From an uncultured Isosphaeraceae bacterium (GTDB lineage: Bacteria > Planctomycetota > Planctomycetia > Isosphaerales > Isosphaeraceae), in the NCBI GenBank assembly GCA_937858365.1, contig CALLYK010000358.1:1-49759 (forward strand): a stretch of 49,759 nucleotides of DNA, written 5' to 3'. Positions 12,695 to 45,279 of this stretch are shown piece by piece. Position 1 is the stretch's first letter, and each line of letters opens with the position of its first letter. A program made the position numbers and the translations under genes. Under the pieces are notes generated by a model. The model ran no database searches. It worked only from the letters and a program-made list of their open reading frames with translations, and had not been told where the DNA came from.

Positions 12695-14392
12695 ATGCTC
12701 TCGCGAACCTGGCCAGGCGCGCTGGCCATACTGCTTTGTATTTCGCATGCTGGGCCGGCGCAAACGACCCAGAAGTTTGATGTGGTCATCGCGGGCGGCT
12801 CAACCGCCGCATTTGCCGCGGCCATCGCCGCGGCCGATACCGGAGCGCGGACCGCCTTGCTGGAACCGACCGATTGGGTCGGCGGTCAACTCACGTCCAG
12901 TGGCGTGCCCGCCGTTGACGAGGCCTGGCACAAGGTGACCGACCCCAAGACGGGCGAGGTCGTCAACGTCTCCGCGATCGCCCGGGCGCGGGCGAACATG
13001 ACGCCCAACTTCCGGGCCCTTCTCGACGCCACCGGGAATCCCGGTCGAGGCTGGGTCAGCAATTACTGCTTCCTCCCCAAGGACTTCCTCGACACGCAGC
13101 TCATCCCTCTCGAACGTAAGGCCGGCCCGAGGCTCGTCGTCTTTCGCGAGACCGTCTTGAAGGGCGTCGAGACCGACCCCGAAACGCGCCGGATTCGATC
13201 GATCACCGCCATTCGCCGAAAACCCAAGAAAGGGTTGACGTACGGCGGATATGATCGCTTGCTTTCCCAAGACCTGGAGGATTGGTACGACCCTCGGACG
13301 TCGGACCGCTTCGACAAGGAGACGCTTCGGTTTGAAGCGGCCGTCTTCATTGAGGCGACCGAATGGGGGGAACTGCTGGCCCTGGCCGACGCCCCTTATC
13401 TTCAAGGTGTCGAAGCGACCGACGGCGGTCCCCAAGGCGAGGACCATTGTGGTCAAGCCACCGTGATCGACTTCGTCCAACGCTTGAACGCGGGGCCGGT
13501 GGAGGAACCGAAGCACGCTGAAGGCGTCGATCGTCTCGGCTTCGGGCCCTATGAAGGGAGGGCAGACGCCTGGGAGCGAATCTGGACCTACCGTCGCGTG
13601 AAGGGCTTCGGCGCCAAGCCCACTCCCGGCGACTTGAGCCTGCAAAACTGGGGCTACGCCGAGTCCAAAGGGAGCGGCGGCAACGACTACCCGTTCGGCT
13701 ACCTCTTCCTGTCGAAAAGGGATACGGCCGAACAACGAAAGGACTGGCGGGGCGGCGTTAATTTGGCCGTGGTGGCAGGGGCCGAGGAACGGGCCTTCGC
13801 CTGGCACGACTGGTTCCGCGACCATCCCCAGGGGGACGTCGAGCCTGGCCAGGTCACGCTCGAAATCGGCCCTCTCGGCACGGGCCACGGACTGGCCAAG
13901 TTGCCCTATGTGCGCGATACCCGCCGCTCGATCGGTCTCGATGGCTACTTGCTGACATTGAAAGACCTGCGCGGCCCAGCCTCGCAAAGGACCGGTAAAC
14001 GCTTTCGAGACCGGATCGCACTGGGGGCATACGCGGCCGACATTCATCCGATGGTCGGCTGCAAGTTCCCTCAGAGCGGCGGCGAGACCCTGCCCTTCTA
14101 CGTCCCCTTCCGGGCCCTGACGAACGAAGGGTTCGGCAATCTTCTCATGGCCGGCAAGACGATGGCCCAGAGTTTCCAGGCGAACTCAGCCACGCGCCTG
14201 CACCCGATCGAGTGGTCAACCGGCACGGCGGCCGGAGTGGCCGCGGCCCACATGGCGACCAACGGACTCGACTCGCGTCAGGCCCTGGCCCGTATCGACG
14301 AGTTGCAGGACCTCATTCGGGCCAAGACCCCGATCGACTGGACGATCGATGGCGTGAAGTATCCGGCGCCCGATGAGGAAACTTCGTTCTGA
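12695..14392 (+). CDS. secreted FAD-dependent oxidoreductase (PF12831-like)
   Basis: A 565-residue flavoprotein of the FAD_oxidored group often annotated as xanthan-lyase-associated. It has a signal peptide (TWPGALAILLCISHAGPAQ) and then the dinucleotide-binding fold FDVVIAGGSTAAFAAAIAAA followed by LLEPTDWVGGQLTSSG. In the Rossmann motif the usual third glycine is replaced by Ala, as in some relatives. C-terminal blocks HPMVGCKFPQSGGETLPFYV, NLLMAGKTMAQSFQANSA and GTAAGVAAAHMA complete the FAD site. The substrate is unknown; a periplasmic place is likely. The ATG 12695 has AAGGA upstream and gives a clean signal peptide; an in-frame start at 12599 does not. Confidence 0.88.
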   Translation: MLSRTWPGALAILLCISHAGPAQTTQKFDVVIAGGSTAAFAAAIAAADTGARTALLEPTDWVGGQLTSSGVPAVDEAWHKVTDPKTGEVVNVSAIARARANMTPNFRALLDATGNPGRGWVSNYCFLPKDFLDTQLIPLERKAGPRLVVFRETVLKGVETDPETRRIRSITAIRRKPKKGLTYGGYDRLLSQDLEDWYDPRTSDRFDKETLRFEAAVFIEATEWGELLALADAPYLQGVEATDGGPQGEDHCGQATVIDFVQRLNAGPVEEPKHAEGVDRLGFGPYEGRADAWERIWTYRRVKGFGAKPTPGDLSLQNWGYAESKGSGGNDYPFGYLFLSKRDTAEQRKDWRGGVNLAVVAGAEERAFAWHDWFRDHPQGDVEPGQVTLEIGPLGTGHGLAKLPYVRDTRRSIGLDGYLLTLKDLRGPASQRTGKRFRDRIALGAYAADIHPMVGCKFPQSGGETLPFYVPFRALTNEGFGNLLMAGKTMAQSFQANSATRLHPIEWSTGTAAGVAAAHMATNGLDSRQALARIDELQDLIRAKTPIDWTIDGVKYPAPDEETSF

Positions 14393-14556
14393 CCAGCTCG
14401 AGTCGCGCGGGGACTTCGTAGAAGGTCCTCGGGGGCATGGGCGGTGTCGCGTCGGTCGTCTCCGACGTTTTGAGGGTTTTCCGGGATTGCGCGGGCCTTG
14501 GTCGAACATAATGAGTGGACGACCGCCGGACGGCCCCGGCTGCCTGGAGGGCCTTC

Positions 14557-16590
14557 ATGCTCTCGACCAACACGCGCCACACGTTCCAGGAACTCCTCAC
14601 ACGGGGCACGGCCGTCGGCCTGACGGACGCCGAGTTGCTCGACCGCGCCCTTTCCGGCCGCGGCGATGGACCCGGTTTCGAGGCCCTTGTGCTGCGTCAT
14701 GGACCGATGGTCCTCCGCGTTTGCCGAGACCTCTTGGGCGATGAACACGAGGCTGAGGACGCCTTCCAAGCGACCTTCCTCGTGCTCGTCCGCAAGGGTC
14801 GCTCGGTACGCGGGGACGGATCGCTTGGCCCCTGGCTCCACGGGGTCGCCTGTCGCGTGGCCCAGCAAGCCCGAGTTGCCGCGGCGCGCCGCCGGCGACG
14901 CGAGGGAGGACAGGTCTCGGACCTGGAACGGCCCGCCCAGGAGATGTCTGTCGAGGGTCGGTTCATTCAGGGCGAGGAATGGGCCGAACTCCATCGCGAG
15001 TTGAGCCAACTGCCCGAGGTCTTCCGATCGCCCTTGGTCCTTTTTCACCTTCAGGGACTCAGTCATGAAGAGGTCGCGTTGCGATTGGGGTGCCCGATCG
15101 GCACGGTGCGGAGCCGCCTGGTCCGCGGTCGAGAGCGTCTCCGCGAACGTCTCGTCCGACGCGGATTCGGTGGTGCCATGACGCCCCTTCTCGCTGGGTT
15201 GGAAGGCGCCGTGAAGGCCATCGCACCCTCGGCCAGGCTCGCAACCAACACGGCCTGGGCCGCCGCCCGCTTCGCGACCGGATCGACGATCAACGGGGTC
15301 GTCTCGTCTTCGGTCGTTTCCCTCACGAAAGGCACCATCACCGCCATGAACCTCTTCACGCTAAAGGTCGGTTTGCTCGGTCTGGTGGTCACGGGCGCGC
15401 TGTCGGCCGGGTCGTCGGCCCTGGTTGCTCGGCCAGGTCAAGGAGCGGGCGAGTCTGTGGAGAAAGGACAGGCCGTCGCGAACGGGCATGAAAAGGGCCT
15501 TCAGCCGCCAGACACCGGCAGGGTCCAAACCGTGGCCGGCAGAAGGTGGCTCCTTGATTACCACGAGGGCCTCGCCCAGGCCTGCGCCCGCAAGGTGCCC
15601 CTGTTCGTCCATTTCCGAAGCGGCCAGGACGTGGACAACCTCGTTCTGGAACAACGGGTCTTTCTCGACCCAACGGTCCAGGACTTCTTATCCAGATACG
15701 TGCTTGTTCGTTTGCACGTCGACCGTGTCCCGATCATGGGTTTGACGGAGGAAGAATCGCTGAAACTTGTACAAAATAATCAAGCCTTGATGCATGAGGT
15801 CGCGAAAGTGGCCGGGGGGACGCCGGTGCTGGTGGCCGACCCTTGCGACGGCAACAAACGGTCGGTCCTGTCCCGGATGGTGACGGCCCAGGACCTCGCG
15901 GCGCTCTTGGGGGCCCACCTCGACAAAGTGAAGGAGAAGGAAGAACCGCCCGCCGCGCGAGCTTCCACCCTTCAATCGCTGCGCGAAAGGTTGGCCTTCA
16001 GCGAGCGGATGTTCCAGAAGGGTTACGTTCCCGAGTCGCAAGTCCTGACCGCTCGCGAGGCCCTCCGCAAGGCCGAGGAGGGGGGCGAACGAGTCTCCGC
16101 GGTCTTCCCCAGAACGGAGGTATCGGAAGGACCGCCCGCGCCGACTTCGGCCGCGGAGATCGGCGCCCTTATCGCTCTGGCGAGGGACCGCCTCAAGTCG
16201 ATGGAGAATATCCAACAACGCGGACTCGTCAGTGATTCGGGGCTCTTGGAGGCCCGTACCAGCCTGAAGGTCCTGGAGGCCCAATTGGCCGGCAGGATGG
16301 AACAACTGCGGGACGAGATCGAGGTCTTGGCGGTCCAGCGCGAAGCGCGAGAAGCGGAGTTGGGGTTGGTGGGGTCGCAAGGGGCCGTGGGCCGGGCGGC
16401 CTTGGCTCGCGTGTCGCAACTGGCCAAGGGCAACCTGGTATCGTCCGAAGAAGTGACGAAGGCGGAGGCAGCCGTCCGCGTCAACGAGGCGGAGCTTCGG
16501 ATCAAGCAGGTCGCCGTGAAGGAGGTCGAGGTGCGAATCCAGCAGGCGAAGCGTCGGCTGCAGGCGTTCGAGAAACTGACGGCGGACTGA
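14557..16590 (+). CDS. ECF sigma factor fused to membrane, thioredoxin-like and coiled-coil parts
   Basis: A 677-residue fusion. Residues 1-210 are an ECF sigma factor: region 2 around LRHGPMVLRVCRDLLGDEHEAEDAFQATFL and region 4 LPEVFRSPLVLFHLQGLSHE with GTVRSRLVRGRERLR. One hydrophobic segment follows at about 268-290 (TLKVGLLGLVVTGALSAGSS). Residues about 329-465 look like a thioredoxin-fold domain of the DUF255/Thioredoxin_7 kind (RKVPLFVHFRSGQDVDN...) but have no CxxC. The rest holds three HlyD-like hairpin motifs (QKGYVPESQVLTAREAL, QRGLVSDSGLLEARTSL, AKGNLVSSEEVTKAEAA). Planctomycete ECF factors with long C-terminal extensions are known; this combination I do not know. Start ATG follows GGAGG by six bases; CATAAT at 14507-14512 may be its -10. 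Confidence 0.88.
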   Translation: MLSTNTRHTFQELLTRGTAVGLTDAELLDRALSGRGDGPGFEALVLRHGPMVLRVCRDLLGDEHEAEDAFQATFLVLVRKGRSVRGDGSLGPWLHGVACRVAQQARVAAARRRRREGGQVSDLERPAQEMSVEGRFIQGEEWAELHRELSQLPEVFRSPLVLFHLQGLSHEEVALRLGCPIGTVRSRLVRGRERLRERLVRRGFGGAMTPLLAGLEGAVKAIAPSARLATNTAWAAARFATGSTINGVVSSSVVSLTKGTITAMNLFTLKVGLLGLVVTGALSAGSSALVARPGQGAGESVEKGQAVANGHEKGLQPPDTGRVQTVAGRRWLLDYHEGLAQACARKVPLFVHFRSGQDVDNLVLEQRVFLDPTVQDFLSRYVLVRLHVDRVPIMGLTEEESLKLVQNNQALMHEVAKVAGGTPVLVADPCDGNKRSVLSRMVTAQDLAALLGAHLDKVKEKEEPPAARASTLQSLRERLAFSERMFQKGYVPESQVLTAREALRKAEEGGERVSAVFPRTEVSEGPPAPTSAAEIGALIALARDRLKSMENIQQRGLVSDSGLLEARTSLKVLEAQLAGRMEQLRDEIEVLAVQREAREAELGLVGSQGAVGRAALARVSQLAKGNLVSSEEVTKAEAAVRVNEAELRIKQVAVKEVEVRIQQAKRRLQAFEKLTAD

Positions 16591-16771: not shown

Positions 16772-17704
16772 TCAAGCGGCGCGTCGGCGGCGGGCCCAGA
16801 AGATGCCGGCGAGTCCCAGAGTGCCCACCACGACCAGAGAAGATGGCTCAGGGATCGCGGCCGCCGCCAGGTCGCCGATGAGTTGATGCCCGGCGGTGGT
16901 CGGATGCACGTCGTCCCAGAAGAGGTAGCCTTGCCCGCTCGTGTTGTTGTCTTGAAGGGCGCCCTTGGTTACGTTCGAGAACCCGAACGCGCTTGGGTTC
17001 GCGATCACTTCTTGGACCTTGGAAGCCACGTCCACGCGGTAGATCTGGACAGGTAAGGTCGTCTCAAGGTTTTTCAGTTGGGCCTCAAGGCTCGCGTTGA
17101 AAGCGGTCGTGAGCGCGTTGAGGTTTGCGCGTTCGAGGTCGGTCACGTTCGAGGTCAGGGGCAATTGGCCGAGAAGCGGCAAGTTCGGGACCACGAAGCG
17201 ACGTGCACCGACGCCTTCCAGCCGCATGATGGCCGAGGCGATGTTGCGCGCGACCACGTCTGGGTTCGTTTGCTTGGCGGTCAAGAAATCGTTGCCGCCA
17301 GTCCAAATCGTCACGAGATCGTTGGGTTGGAACGTGCGACCGGAGTCCACGAAGTTGGCCGCTTGCTGCACGAGATTGGGCGTGAGCACGGGGGAGGGCC
17401 CGATCCCCGACTGGGCGCCGCCCCAAGCGAAGTTCGTGCCGCCCATCGAACTGGGTGTGGGGGGCGACTGGCCAAGGCGTTGTGCCAAATAATCCACCCA
17501 GGTCGGGCCGTTCGAGAAATGCCCACCGCTGTACGGGGGCGAAGGGGGTGTGGTCCCTTGGCTGGCCGCGTAAGAGTTCCCCGCGTCACTGAGGCTGTCG
17601 CCGAAGACATAAATACCGTCGAAGGCCGCCTGGGCCGACGACGCAAACGAGCCCAGGAACGAAGTCAACGCGATACCGAGCACCATCCGTTGGCACCCAT
17701 TCAT
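16772..17704 (-). CDS. SGNH/GDSL esterase with PEP-CTERM anchor
   Basis: A 310-residue secreted hydrolase of the GDSL lipase/acylhydrolase family. A signal peptide ends near AQA (residues 24-26). Catalytic blocks are visible: block I FGDSLSDAGN (nucleophile Ser37), the WAWGG-like NFAWGGAQ, block III TIWTGGNDF, and block V WDDVHPTTAGH carrying the Asp and His of the triad. The C-terminus is a PEP-CTERM sorting tag: IPEPSS, a hydrophobic helix (LVVVGTLGLAGIFWA) and RRRR. PEP-CTERM proteins are processed by exosortase; none is in this window. The ATG has AAGGAG upstream. Substrate unknown, probably an ester at or outside the cell surface. Confidence 0.93.
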   Translation of the reverse strand: MNGCQRMVLGIALTSFLGSFASSAQAAFDGIYVFGDSLSDAGNSYAASQGTTPPSPPYSGGHFSNGPTWVDYLAQRLGQSPPTPSSMGGTNFAWGGAQSGIGPSPVLTPNLVQQAANFVDSGRTFQPNDLVTIWTGGNDFLTAKQTNPDVVARNIASAIMRLEGVGARRFVVPNLPLLGQLPLTSNVTDLERANLNALTTAFNASLEAQLKNLETTLPVQIYRVDVASKVQEVIANPSAFGFSNVTKGALQDNNTSGQGYLFWDDVHPTTAGHQLIGDLAAAAIPEPSSLVVVGTLGLAGIFWARRRRAA

Positions 17705-40711: not shown

Positions 40712-42016
40712 TCATGAGAGGTGCCCACGCCGGCCGCGAATGTTGAGGTCGCCCGACTCGAACGACGTGTAGGTCAACAGGTAATCGTCGAGACCGTTGA
40801 TGCTGACCGCCGCGTCGAAACGCGGGCCCGCGTCGTGGGTGGCCAGGACTTGGTTGAGGGCGGATACCTCCGCGACTTTCACGTGCGTTGGCAATAAAGA
40901 CATGCTTTGATACGACACGACGAACCCGCCACCGTTCCGCTTCAAGGCCACGGATGGGGCCCTCTCGTCGGCGAAGGACGACGCGATGCCGGTCTCAAGT
41001 CCCGCGATTCCCGCGAAGTTGACCCGTCGGGCCTTGATGTCATGTCCACCGTTGCCGACCTTCTCGTAAGCCACCACGCTGTTGCCGAATCGGTCCATTG
41101 ACAGGCTTGGCAACGACTCGGTGAGGCTGGACGTCGCGATCGACACGCTCGAGACGAACTGGGCCGACGCGCTGTAGCGGTTCATCTTGATGTCATGGTC
41201 CGTGGCGCTGAAGGCCTCTTCCCAGGCCACGTTGAATCGACCATCGCTGGTCATCGCGATCGTGGGGTTGAGTTCGGCCCGAGTGGAGGTGGCCACGTTG
41301 ACCACGTTGAGCAGGTTGCCGTTGGTGTCGTAGCGCTTGGCGAAGACGTCGGGATTGTTGTTGTTCGTGTCTCGAACATAGGCCACGACGAACCGGCCGA
41401 AGTCGTCCATCGCCACGTCGGGGTTGTGCTCCTTGAACGTGCCGACACCCACTTGCACCACGTTCCCTTGCGCGATGCCCAATGCGTTGAACTTGCGGGC
41501 GACCACGTTGGTGTCGCCGCTGGTCAAGGTCTGCATCCAGGTCACTACGAAGTCGCCGTTCGCGTTCATGGCGACCTTGGGCGTCGCCTCGTCCAACGAA
41601 CTGGAACTGACGACGAAATCGGGACCCACCTTCGCGCCGAAGGCGTTGAACCGCTGGGCGCGGATGTCGTGATCCGTCGGCGAGAACGTGTCCACCCACA
41701 CGGCCACGGACGACCCGTCCGCGGAGCTCGCGTTGTCGGAAAGGAACTGGAAGCCCGCGGTCTTGGTGTTGATTGGGGTCAGGAACTCCGAACCGAGGGA
41801 CATCAAGCGTCGCCCTTCCAGGGTTTCCAACCCGGGCCGGCGCTTCCGGCAACGTGAGGAAGTGGAGGCGGAGACCGGACGCGGGGACGCTTTTCGCAAG
41901 AACGGCAACACGGCAGGGCCCCTTTCGGTGAGGAGGGGCCGAACCAGCGGACGAAGCGCCCGACGAGCCGCCCCAAGCACTTCATCAGGAGGGACCACGC
42001 CGGCGGACGACCCCAT
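40712..42016 (-). CDS. LEPR-motif surface protein with beta repeats
   Basis: A 434-residue exported protein. Residues about 62-78 form an Arg-rich stretch and the planctomycete motif LETLEGRRLM. The rest is repeats of about 50 residues of the form xVAMxxxGDFVVTWxxxxxxxxDVxARRFNxxG, for example VAMNANGDFVVTW, VAMDDFGRFVVAY, IAMTSDGRFNVAW and LSMDRFGNSVVAY; a beta-propeller-like fold is likely. The reading frame stays open to 42739, but that upstream part is antisense to the ECF sigma gene and has no protein-like content; the ATG 42016 is the first good start outside it, though without a clear ribosome site. Likely a surface protein. Confidence 0.82.
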   Translation of the reverse strand: MGSSAGVVPPDEVLGAARRALRPLVRPLLTERGPAVLPFLRKASPRPVSASTSSRCRKRRPGLETLEGRRLMSLGSEFLTPINTKTAGFQFLSDNASSADGSSVAVWVDTFSPTDHDIRAQRFNAFGAKVGPDFVVSSSSLDEATPKVAMNANGDFVVTWMQTLTSGDTNVVARKFNALGIAQGNVVQVGVGTFKEHNPDVAMDDFGRFVVAYVRDTNNNNPDVFAKRYDTNGNLLNVVNVATSTRAELNPTIAMTSDGRFNVAWEEAFSATDHDIKMNRYSASAQFVSSVSIATSSLTESLPSLSMDRFGNSVVAYEKVGNGGHDIKARRVNFAGIAGLETGIASSFADERAPSVALKRNGGGFVVSYQSMSLLPTHVKVAEVSALNQVLATHDAGPRFDAAVSINGLDDYLLTYTSFESGDLNIRGRRGHLS

Positions 42017-42175
42017 CTCGAAAGTCAAGGAAGGCCCCAAAAGCGTTGGTGGACGCTCCCGAAGCCACGGGAGAGCTGGAAGGCCCGTCGCTTTTTTCTC
42101 GACCCACGCTACAAAGAAAGGGCCGGTCTGTGCGTTGTCTTGTTGGACTGGCCGCGATCGAAGCCGGGAGGACTC

Positions 42176-42697
42176 ATGGCGGGACGATTGGGGTCCGACG
42201 GGACCCACTGGGTTCGGACGGCCGTCGAACGGTTCCAGGGACCGCTCACGCTCTACGCCACGCGCTTGCTCGGCGACCCCGACCAGGCCCGCGACGTGGT
42301 CCAGGACACGTTCCTGAAACTCTGCTCCCAAGACGAGGCCCGGATCGGGCCCCACCTGGCCGAATGGCTCTTCACCGTCTGCCGCAACCGGGCGATGGAC
42401 GTCCTCAGGAAGGAGAAACGCATGGCCAAGCTCACGCAAGCGGCGCCGCCCGAACGGCCTGCCGTCGAGCCTCCGCCCGGCGAGGCCCTGGAACGTCGCG
42501 AGACGCTCTCCCAGGTCGTCGGTTGGCTCGACAACTTGCCCCCCAATCAACGGGAAGTCATCCGCCTCCGTTTTCAAAACGGGTTTTCCTATAAAGAGAT
42601 CAGCCGCATCAGCGGTCATAGCGTGGCCAACGTTGGCTACCTCCTCCACGCCGGAATGAAGTCGCTTCGCGGCCGGATGGCCGAGGCCCAGATCTGA
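42176..42697 (+). CDS. ECF sigma factor
   Basis: A 173-residue extracytoplasmic-function sigma factor. Region 2 is VERFQGPLTLYATRLLGDPD with QARDVVQDTFLKL, and region 4 is LDNLPPNQREVIRLRFQNGF, SYKEISRISGHSVANVGYLL and HAGMKSLRGRM. It directs RNA polymerase to a small set of promoters and is normally held by a cognate anti-sigma. The next gene, 29 bases downstream, begins with an anti-sigma-like segment and is the obvious partner. The ATG 42176 has GGGAGGA about four bases upstream; an extension to 42140 is possible but weaker. Divergent to the LEPR protein. Confidence 0.92.
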   Translation: MAGRLGSDGTHWVRTAVERFQGPLTLYATRLLGDPDQARDVVQDTFLKLCSQDEARIGPHLAEWLFTVCRNRAMDVLRKEKRMAKLTQAAPPERPAVEPPPGEALERRETLSQVVGWLDNLPPNQREVIRLRFQNGFSYKEISRISGHSVANVGYLLHAGMKSLRGRMAEAQI

Positions 42698-42726
42698 AGG
42701 AAACGTCAAGCGAAAGAGGTCTGCCC

Positions 42727-45279
42727 ATGTCCTACCCACCGATCGAGGACGATCCTCGCCTGACGGCCTTCGCCCTGGGCGAGATCGACGAAGACGCCGA
42801 GCGGGCCGAAGTCGAGGCCCGGCTCGAAGACGACCCCGAGGCCCGCGCGTTCGTCGAGGACGTCCGCCGCTTGGCCCGCGCCCTCACCGAGGAACTTCAA
42901 CGCGAGCCCATGCCCGTCCTGGAAGAAGGACAACGCGTCGCGATCGAACGCGAATTGGCCGTTGCTCGTCCCAAGACCGGCCCTTCCTTCTTTCTCCGGA
43001 ACGCGCGTCAATTCGCCCTGGCCGCCGTCGCCCTCATCGCGATCGGTCTTGGCTTGCTGATGAACCGCCCGGCCTTGCAAAGAGGCAACGACTTCACACA
43101 ACTCGCCGCTTCCCATCGTGACACTGCCAAGATGCCCCCAGCGGCCCCCGCTCCTCTTCCCAATCGCACCCTGGACCTGTACGACTTCGACGCGGCCCGG
43201 TCAGACCCAGGCGCCTCGGCGATCCGACCGAGAGGCGATGCCCTTTCCTCCAACTCTCACGATGCCCCCGCCTCGGCCGGGGAAGGGAGAGGAGTGACCA
43301 ACCTCGCGTTCAAACGGGAGGCCCCAGCCGACGGAAGGATTTACGCCCGAGTCGAGACGGCCCCAGCGCCCGCCGCGCCCGAGGTTGTCCCGGCCGCTCC
43401 CACGCCCACTCCCGAGCCGAAGGTCCTCTCGGCGGGGCTCGAGGCGCAAACCAACTACGGCACGCGGACCGCGCGACAGCCCGCGCTCCGCGGTGCCAAC
43501 CCGACCGGAGGCATGGGCGGGGGAGGCGGCGGCCTGGGCCTGGACAGTTTGGGGAAACGCGGCAATGCGGCCGGCCCCGGCGGGCCCCCAGTAACCGGCA
43601 AGCCCGCGGCTGGGGGTCGCTTCTTGGAGCTGGGGGGCAAGGATCGAGGAGCGCTCATCAACAAACTCGACGACGCCAAGCCAACGACCCCAGCCGCCGT
43701 GCCGGAAACCGCCGCCAAAGGGGGAGATTCCTTGGACGTCAAGCTTGGTGAAGTCGGAGAGCTCGCCCAAGACCTGGCGAAAGAGCGGAAGCGTGTGGAG
43801 GACGAGCAACTCCTCCGCGAGCAACTTCGCCTTAAACAGGTGGACGAACTCAACCGCGAGGCCTTCGCGCCGATCCAGGAAAACCCGTTTGTCAAAGTGA
43901 CCGAGGCCCCACTATCGACCTTCGGCATCGACGTGGACACCGCCTCGTACGCCAATGTCCGCCGCTTTCTGCTCGGTGAGGGCCGCATGCCTCCGCCCGA
44001 CGCCGTCCGCATCGAGGAACTGGTGAACTACTTCTCCTACGCCTACCCGACGCCCGTGGACGACAAGCCGTTCGCAGTGAACGTCGAGTTCGCCCGCTGC
44101 CCCTGGCAGGCCGACCATCGCTTGCTCCGCGTGGGCCTGAAGGGACGCGAGGTCCCGATCGACAAGCGTCCGCCCAGCAACCTCGTGTTCTTGATCGACG
44201 TCTCCGGCTCAATGAACGACTCCAACAAACTACCGTGGGTCAAGTCGGCCCTGGCGATGCTCGTGGACAAGCTCACCGAGAACGACCGGGTGACCATCGT
44301 CGTGTACGCCGCCGCCAAGGGCGTCGCGCTGCCGCCCACGCAGGGGGACAAGAAAGACGTCATCCTCGCGACCCTCGACCGCCTGCACGCTGGCGGCTCG
44401 ACCAACGGCGGCGAGGGTCTCAAACTGGCCTACGACATCGCCCAGGCCCAGTTCATCAACGGCGGCACGAACCGGATCATCCTCTGCACCGACGGCGACT
44501 TCAACACGGGGGACGTCACCGACCTGGCCGGCGTTACTCGCCTCGTCGAGGAGAAACGCGCCACCAAGGTGAAACTCACCGTGCTTGGGTTCGGCCAGGG
44601 CAACCTCCAAGACGACAAACTGGAGGCACTCGCCAACAAGGGGGACGGTCAATACGCCTACATCGACACCCTGAAGGAGGCCCAGCGCGTCCTGGTCGAG
44701 CAGATGAGCGGCACGCTGCTGACCATTGCCAAGGACGTGAAGCTCCAACTCGATTTCAACCCGCGTTTCGTGGGGGCCTACCGGCTCCTCGGCTACGAGA
44801 ACCGGATGCTCCGGGCCCAAGACTTCCGCGACGACACCAAAGACGCCGGCGACATTGGCGCGGGGCACACCGTCACGGCCCTCTATGAACTGATGCCCCC
44901 AGGCAAGGACGAACAGGTCCCGGCCGCCGGAGACTCCAAGTTCGTCGAGAAGTCGAAGCTCAAGGAAGACGAGTCGGCCCTGACCCAGACCCTCGTCGTG
45001 AACCTGCGTTACAAGGAGCCCGACGGCGACGTGAGCACAGGGTTCGACTTCGCGGTCCGGGACGACGGCAAGGACTACGCCGCCGCCTCCGCCGACTTCA
45101 AGTTCGCCGCCGCGGTGGCCGAGTTCGGCCTCCTTCTGCGGGAGTCGAAGTTCAAAGGGACGGCCACTTATGAGGCCACCCTGGAACTCGCCGAGGCCAG
45201 CAAGGGGGCCGACCCGAAGGGGGAACGCAAGGAGTTCCTCGACCTGGTCCGCATCGCCCGTGACCTCTCGCGACGCTGA
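42727..45279 (+). CDS. anti-sigma-like/VWA membrane protein (YfbK-like)
   Basis: An 850-residue fusion. Residues 1-95 are acidic and helical (LTAFALGEIDEDAERAEVEA), like the cytoplasmic part of zinc-free anti-sigma factors. One membrane helix follows at about 96-112 (FALAAVALIAIGLGLLM). Then a low-complexity Pro/Ala/Gly region to about residue 380, a vWF-type N-terminal domain (STFGIDVDTASYANVRRFLL), a von Willebrand A domain with a full MIDAS (DVSGSMN at 491, TNGGEG, TDGDFNTG), and a DUF3520-type C-terminus. Relatives without the anti-sigma part are called YfbK. Cotranscribed with the ECF factor. Topology would put the VWA domain outside. Binding partner unknown. Confidence 0.9.
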   Translation: MSYPPIEDDPRLTAFALGEIDEDAERAEVEARLEDDPEARAFVEDVRRLARALTEELQREPMPVLEEGQRVAIERELAVARPKTGPSFFLRNARQFALAAVALIAIGLGLLMNRPALQRGNDFTQLAASHRDTAKMPPAAPAPLPNRTLDLYDFDAARSDPGASAIRPRGDALSSNSHDAPASAGEGRGVTNLAFKREAPADGRIYARVETAPAPAAPEVVPAAPTPTPEPKVLSAGLEAQTNYGTRTARQPALRGANPTGGMGGGGGGLGLDSLGKRGNAAGPGGPPVTGKPAAGGRFLELGGKDRGALINKLDDAKPTTPAAVPETAAKGGDSLDVKLGEVGELAQDLAKERKRVEDEQLLREQLRLKQVDELNREAFAPIQENPFVKVTEAPLSTFGIDVDTASYANVRRFLLGEGRMPPPDAVRIEELVNYFSYAYPTPVDDKPFAVNVEFARCPWQADHRLLRVGLKGREVPIDKRPPSNLVFLIDVSGSMNDSNKLPWVKSALAMLVDKLTENDRVTIVVYAAAKGVALPPTQGDKKDVILATLDRLHAGGSTNGGEGLKLAYDIAQAQFINGGTNRIILCTDGDFNTGDVTDLAGVTRLVEEKRATKVKLTVLGFGQGNLQDDKLEALANKGDGQYAYIDTLKEAQRVLVEQMSGTLLTIAKDVKLQLDFNPRFVGAYRLLGYENRMLRAQDFRDDTKDAGDIGAGHTVTALYELMPPGKDEQVPAAGDSKFVEKSKLKEDESALTQTLVVNLRYKEPDGDVSTGFDFAVRDDGKDYAAASADFKFAAAVAEFGLLLRESKFKGTATYEATLELAEASKGADPKGERKEFLDLVRIARDLSRR

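Follow-up and report, generated by a model that had tools for sequence, protein, structure and literature searches.

A putative membrane-anchored ECF sigma factor of an Isosphaeraceae bacterium carrying a DsbD-gamma-like domain and adaptor-like coiled coils

A single gene of an uncultured Isosphaeraceae bacterium joins an ECF sigma factor to a hydrophobic helix, a thioredoxin fold that has lost its CxxC site and adaptor-like coiled coils, and the product is likely to be a one-protein transmembrane sigma sensor, which would remain sequestered until an event in the periplasm leads to its release, probably by proteolysis. The gene belongs to a very large planctomycete family whose proposed plan is sigma2, sigma4, an amphipathic linker, a signal-anchor helix and an exchangeable extracytoplasmic module. 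This family-wide anchored plan, with its exchanged modules of exported type, is a more interesting fact than the single gene. The whole stretch of DNA that was analysed, 49,759 nucleotides, is referred to here as the window. Residue numbers follow the 691-residue form that begins at an alternative in-frame GTG at 14515; the ATG start is favoured by the family alignment, in which homology to the paralogues begins at about residue 20-24, and 14 should be subtracted for this form. The gene and its sigma regions are:

14557-16590, + strand: whole gene, 677 residues from the ATG
14686-14880, + strand: sigma region 2, residues 58-122 (Pfam PF04542 Sigma70_r2, 2.8e-10)
14986-15147, + strand: sigma region 4, residues 158-211 (Pfam PF08281 Sigma70_r4_2, 2e-14, matching residues 158-209)

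From the sigma part through the C-terminus, the gene forms one uninterrupted open reading frame, in which the ECF sigma2/sigma4 regions, the membrane helix, the CxxC-less thioredoxin fold and three turns of KGxVS type within antiparallel coiled coils follow one another in this order. GC3 varies little over the whole frame (0.72-0.85), and there is thus no sign of a frameshift or composition break between the sigma part and the rest; the proposal of the first-pass annotation that one gene joins all these parts therefore holds. Its assignment of the N-terminal half was confirmed as well: both regions score over the Pfam cut-offs, TIGR02937 (NCBIfam) reaches 74.9 bits against a cut-off of 42.9, and Pfam matches in residues 15-215 are limited to sigma2 and sigma4, with no sigma3 or other sigma region. 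These profiles place the window protein among the ECF sigma factors (group 4 sigma70). An FAD-dependent oxidoreductase gene on the same strand is the upstream neighbour, ending at 14392, about 165 bases from the sigma gene, and the two could share a transcript. The convergent downstream gene (16772-17704, - strand) encodes a GDSL lipase that bears a PEP-CTERM sorting signal. Elsewhere in the window, a second and minimal gene for an ECF sigma factor (42140-42697, + strand) lies directly upstream of a YfbK/VWA-domain gene (42727-45279, + strand), and the 675-residue antisense reading frame over this minimal gene (40712-42739, - strand), which is without a Pfam match, is probably not a gene.

Residues from about 20 to 310 match a large, ECF57-like family of sigma factors of Isosphaeraceae and Gemmataceae. 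The sigma-plus-helix half was present in all 59 genomes searched, mostly in reading frames of 430-2300 residues, which match only query residues from about 20 to 330. There are 57 Sigma70_r2 matches in the source genome itself, each of several relatives' genomes gave more than 100 first-look candidates for the query, and among the GTDB matches are many loci of Singulisphaera acidiphila, Singulisphaera sp. GP187, Aquisphaera, Tautonia and the gemmataceous Zavarzinella. Behind the helix, relatives carry di-haem peroxidase/cytochrome c, SLBB/Poly_export, OmpH, trypsin-like, PepSY-like or carboxypeptidase-regulatory domains, and a WD40 extension was seen in at least one relative. Most of these modules (di-haem peroxidase/cytochrome c, SLBB, OmpH and others) work outside the cytoplasm. 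Fusion of an ECF sigma factor and membrane helix to a di-haem peroxidase/cytochrome c domain was observed in two different genomes (L100, 971-3679; L095, 1026-3740). The plan is thus multiplied within single genomes, and modules of exported type are swapped at a fixed junction.

ECF57 has been described as a group with C-terminal extensions and a conserved pair of cysteines, possibly linking sigma2 to sigma4; its model member is WP_015250107.1 of Singulisphaera acidiphila (PMC8999054). Compared by this published description of the group, the sequences of the family very probably represent ECF57 or a group close to it: the window protein is a planctomycete ECF of Singulisphaera type with a long C-terminal extension (here in a 691-residue frame), many relatives occur in S. 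acidiphila, and both cysteines, at positions 70 and 177, are kept in 113 of 116 distinct relatives. The two positions in the window protein are:

14722-14724, + strand: Cys70, the sigma2 member of the cysteine pair (C in 114 of 116 distinct relatives)
15043-15045, + strand: Phe177 (TTT), replacing the sigma4 cysteine (C in 115 of 116 distinct relatives and in 52 of 53 rows of another alignment)

With C70 and F177, the window protein lacks the two-cysteine feature, and for this reason it is termed ECF57-like here. It also differs from ECF57 in its DsbD-gamma-like domain and adaptor-like coiled coils, and it has no Pfam match to WD40/PD40, whereas WD40-like repeats occur in some ECF57 members only. 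The remaining invariant sigma residues are retained. Among the 116 relatives, the only others missing one family cysteine are L182, L217 and L012, with Y at 177 and G and A at 70.

The sigma regions are followed by conserved helices, the last of which runs into the hydrophobic stretch:

15178-15345, + strand: conserved juxtamembrane helices, residues 222-277 (AlphaFold2 helices 222-235, 240-254 and 265 onward; column conservation)
15346-15426, + strand: predicted membrane helix, signal-anchor-like, residues 278-304 (Met278 conserved, basic residues on the N side, AlphaFold2)

The helix of this protein is moderately hydrophobic, and its hydropathy maximum taken alone (stretch 287-305) is not beyond chance, being reached by 863 of 2000 shuffles. 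The test by shuffling this protein was replaced by conservation over 116 distinct relatives, in which a 19-residue window with a Kyte-Doolittle value of at least 1.6 was looked for at homologous columns 278-312, with columns 215-249 as control. Such a hydrophobic stretch is present in 109 of 116 relatives, compared with 10 at the control columns; residues 286-303 are without a charged residue in 107 of the 116, and Met278 is kept in 105 of the 116. AlphaFold2 predicted residues 265-304 as one continuous helix (pLDDT about 94), and the membrane helix that had been claimed near 268-290 is thus upheld by the relatives and the model together. Lys or Arg occupies columns 282 and 284 in about 80 of the 116 relatives each; by the positive-inside rule, these basic residues on the N side of the helix would place the sigma part inside. 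Signal-peptidase AxA motifs after the helix were considered and set aside as uninformative, because such motifs are common throughout this Ala-rich stretch; columns 302-306 show a suggestive V/L-x-A-x-Q tendency.

Insertion of the stretch into the membrane is suggested by the exported-type modules behind it, and there is a precedent in Tuwongella, in which planctomycete ECF sigma factors were recovered only in detergent-soluble fractions (PMC8567305). The arrangement put forward in the first-pass annotation, with sigma in the cytoplasm and the rest outside, is therefore the likely topology, given both the basic residues on the N side and the exported-type modules after the helix in relatives. 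The C-terminal part might instead be a cytoplasmic regulatory extension, with the hydrophobic stretch buried or peripheral and with protein contact as the activating event, a mode proposed for ECF42 and ECF57. The chance-level hydropathy of this protein alone would agree with it, the WD40 extensions of relatives could act in the cytoplasm, and the review in which ECF57 appears among the groups activated by protein interaction argues from a cytoplasmic location and treats the cysteine pair as a cytoplasmic feature (PMC8999054). However, the hydrophobic and almost always uncharged stretch lies at the same place in nearly all relatives, the cytochrome c/DHOR, SLBB, OmpH and DsbD-gamma modules are of periplasmic type, and the hairpin module of the window protein is shared with proteins that have apparent signal peptides, so that a cytoplasmic extension appears improbable.

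The part directly behind the predicted membrane helix resembles the C-terminal domain of DsbD:

15505-15936, + strand: DsbD-gamma-like thioredoxin-fold domain, residues 331-474 (Pfam Thioredoxin_7, DsbD alignment, AlphaFold2, Foldseek)
15628-15639, + strand: lost CxxC site, D372-V-D-N375 (alignment to planctomycete DsbD)

Pfam Thioredoxin_7 matches residues 345-403 at 1e-6 (29.2 bits; cut-off 27), and residues 331-474 are 23-30% identical to the C-terminal domains of planctomycete DsbD proteins. Folded together with DsbD relatives, this part was modelled by AlphaFold2 at a pLDDT of about 90, and its best matches among solved structures in Foldseek were DsbD-gamma (1uc7 at 6.4e-6, and 2fwh). 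The thioredoxin fold without CxxC that had been read from the letters was therefore recovered above the cut-off, with D-V-D-N at the CxxC position; P437, the proline opposite the active site, is retained. Based on the alignment and the modelled fold, the domain is considered to derive from the DsbD gamma domain and to be non-redox now. It differs from DsbD gamma in the loss of both active-site cysteines, in its detachment from the DsbD membrane domain and in its fusion to a sigma factor. The gamma domain of DsbD is periplasmic, and this origin supports the proposed topology. A profile of the thioredoxin part gave about one strong DsbD-like match per genome in 45 family genomes, with DsbD-like reading-frame lengths, and among these strong matches the combination of sigma and DsbD-gamma was found in this reading frame only. 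WD40 chains returned by a PDB profile search (alignment A5) matched a fragment remote from the active site, for which reason they were rejected as a chance or profile artefact. DsbD-like proteins that contain a tandem of two or three Thioredoxin_7 domains, one copy being cysteine-less, were observed at L033 (1-2892) and L045 (2-1645), and the loss of CxxC is thus not unique to the window protein.

The last third of the protein has no Pfam match and was described by structure prediction and by profiles of relatives:

15949-16077, + strand: first alpha-hairpin, residues 479-521 (AlphaFold2 helices 479-501 and 507-521; nearest to the hairpins of true HlyD_D23 adaptors, L116 and L117)
16150-16584, + strand: three-helix antiparallel coiled coil, residues 546-690 (AlphaFold2 pLDDT 93-97; MacA/AcrA profile match; relatives)

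In the AlphaFold2 models the three KGxVS-type turns lie at about 502-506, 569-573 and 639-643, at the hairpin tips, and the three hairpin motifs noticed at first are accordingly found as turns of coiled coils. An alpha-hairpin coiled coil with a KGxxS-type tip is present, the sequence evidence for which is weak to moderate: single-sequence NCBIfam matches to HlyD-type adaptors are weak (6.6e-4 to 0.016), and a profile of the hairpin region of relatives matched MacA at 7.8e-4, MexJ at 9e-4 and AcrA more weakly. In Foldseek, HlyD (5c22) and MacA were among the first non-sigma matches, with a probability of 1.00 but E values of 0.12-0.5. The full-length (A2) and C-terminal (A3) MAFFT alignments misplaced thioredoxin and hairpin fragments and were kept out of folding. 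Neither a lipoyl nor a beta-barrel domain is present: Pfam gave no match to HlyD_D23, HlyD_3 or Biotin_lipoyl, whereas the true adaptors L116, L117 and L102 do match. Thus, of the HlyD-like adaptor rod proposed earlier, the alpha-hairpin resemblance to MacA/MexJ profiles and the HlyD fold stands and the adaptor itself does not: the region is an adaptor-like coiled coil, composed of one short hairpin and a three-helix bundle, and lacks the lipoyl, beta-barrel and membrane-proximal domains of MacA, AcrA and HlyD.

The hairpin module was found by profile search in 23 of 45 family genomes (E<=1e-5) and in 0 of 243 other genomes of the wider phylum (E<=1e-6), and a pattern search of GTDB genomes returned no relatives of the whole C-terminus. 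It occurs in three settings: behind an ECF sigma factor and helix (L078, L080, L083, L085, L128, L131, L025, L143-L145), after the membrane/peptidase domain of M56/BlaR1-like peptidases (L079, L136), and in small proteins of about 190-250 residues, several with apparent N-terminal signal peptides. The last two settings support the proposed topology. The M56/BlaR1-like sensor peptidases carry the same module, but have a membrane metallopeptidase as effector instead of a sigma factor; outside parts are thus shared between two kinds of membrane sensor. In G001 and G031, a small hairpin protein is encoded directly 3' of a hairpin-bearing ECF sigma factor. Loci with this order are L110 (6417-8900) and L111 (4675-6912), of two genera; L111 has a guanylate-cyclase/FHA gene upstream, and a similar upstream gene occurs in L112, next to a frame-broken sigma gene. 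A tree built from 59 sigma regions groups eight hairpin-bearing sigmas into a single clade with good support (100/95). The window protein stands elsewhere, held by no small well supported set, and three or more changes of the hairpin label are required by the branches with good support. The simplest reading of this tree is that the module was probably joined separately to different sigmas, including the window protein.

The first-pass annotation took ECF proteins with extensions to be known in planctomycetes, but not this set of domains. The exact combination was indeed found only here among the 45 family genomes, but the anchored-sigma layout is common to the family described above; the architecture class is known in outline and the module set is new. 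That this combination was seen once, with no orthologue of the same architecture, might also point to a degenerate or decaying paralogue, possibly non-functional, for which Phe177 and the D-V-D-N site could be taken as signs. Such decay is very improbable in view of the intact frame with steady GC3, the other invariant sigma residues that were retained and the confidently predicted coiled coil.

In the sensor that we favour, the sigma part would be held at the membrane in the cytoplasm, and the DsbD-gamma-like domain and coiled coils would lie in the periplasm, where they may bind a protein partner or sense the state of the envelope. With neither the thioredoxin cysteines nor the sigma4 cysteine left, it is unlikely that the signal is a redox one, and sensing more probably takes place at the surface of the coiled coil. 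Upon a signal, the periplasmic module would be displaced or cut, and the membrane helix would then be cleaved by a site-1 cut followed by an RseP/site-2 type cut, freeing sigma for RNA polymerase. M50 proteases are encoded in the source genome, and signal-peptidase cleavage of the anti-sigma RsiP offers a precedent for site 1 (PMC8844934). The release step is modelled on IutY (ECF243), which together with ECF48, ECF52 and ECF53 represents the membrane-fused sigmas and for which proteolytic release was shown (PMC8999054). These proteins likewise combine sigma, a membrane helix C-terminal to sigma4 (its insertion being predicted here) and an extracytoplasmic part in one chain; in them, however, sigma is fused to an anti-sigma, of zinc-finger type in ECF48, ECF52 and ECF53. 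No anti-sigma-like domain was identified in the window protein, and residues 215-277, where the conserved helices lie, have no Pfam domain. The earlier suggestion that a separate anti-sigma is not involved is plausible, its basis being that no such gene is adjacent.

Alternatively, sigma might stay tethered and work without proteolysis, as a ToxR-like one-component regulator: the coiled coil would gain or lose a partner, and sigma would change its conformation or oligomeric state and transcribe at the membrane. The long continuous helix in the model could carry such a conformational signal, coiled coils commonly serve as modules for binding proteins, small hairpin proteins adjoin the two hairpin-bearing sigmas of G001 and G031, and ECF57 is listed under protein interaction (PMC8999054). 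On the other hand, sigma must reach promoters with RNA polymerase, and IutY, the sole fused membrane sigma characterised experimentally, is released by proteolysis (PMC8999054); we therefore regard a permanently tethered sigma as unlikely, and retain release by proteolysis as the probable course.

Fused membrane sigmas are known, and release was shown experimentally for very few of them; no experiment on any member of the present family was found in the literature. We tentatively propose that Isosphaeraceae and Gemmataceae may possess a large class of transmembrane one-component sigma sensors, whose freely exchanged periplasmic modules come from a pool shared with their BlaR1-like M56 sensors and secreted proteins, and that the window protein would be a redox-disarmed member responding to a protein partner via its coiled coils. 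If the topology is true, the WD40 and other extensions of ECF57-like proteins would face outward, contrary to the cytoplasmic reading of the review, and sigmas cut short at the helix should be constitutive and make the regulons readable.
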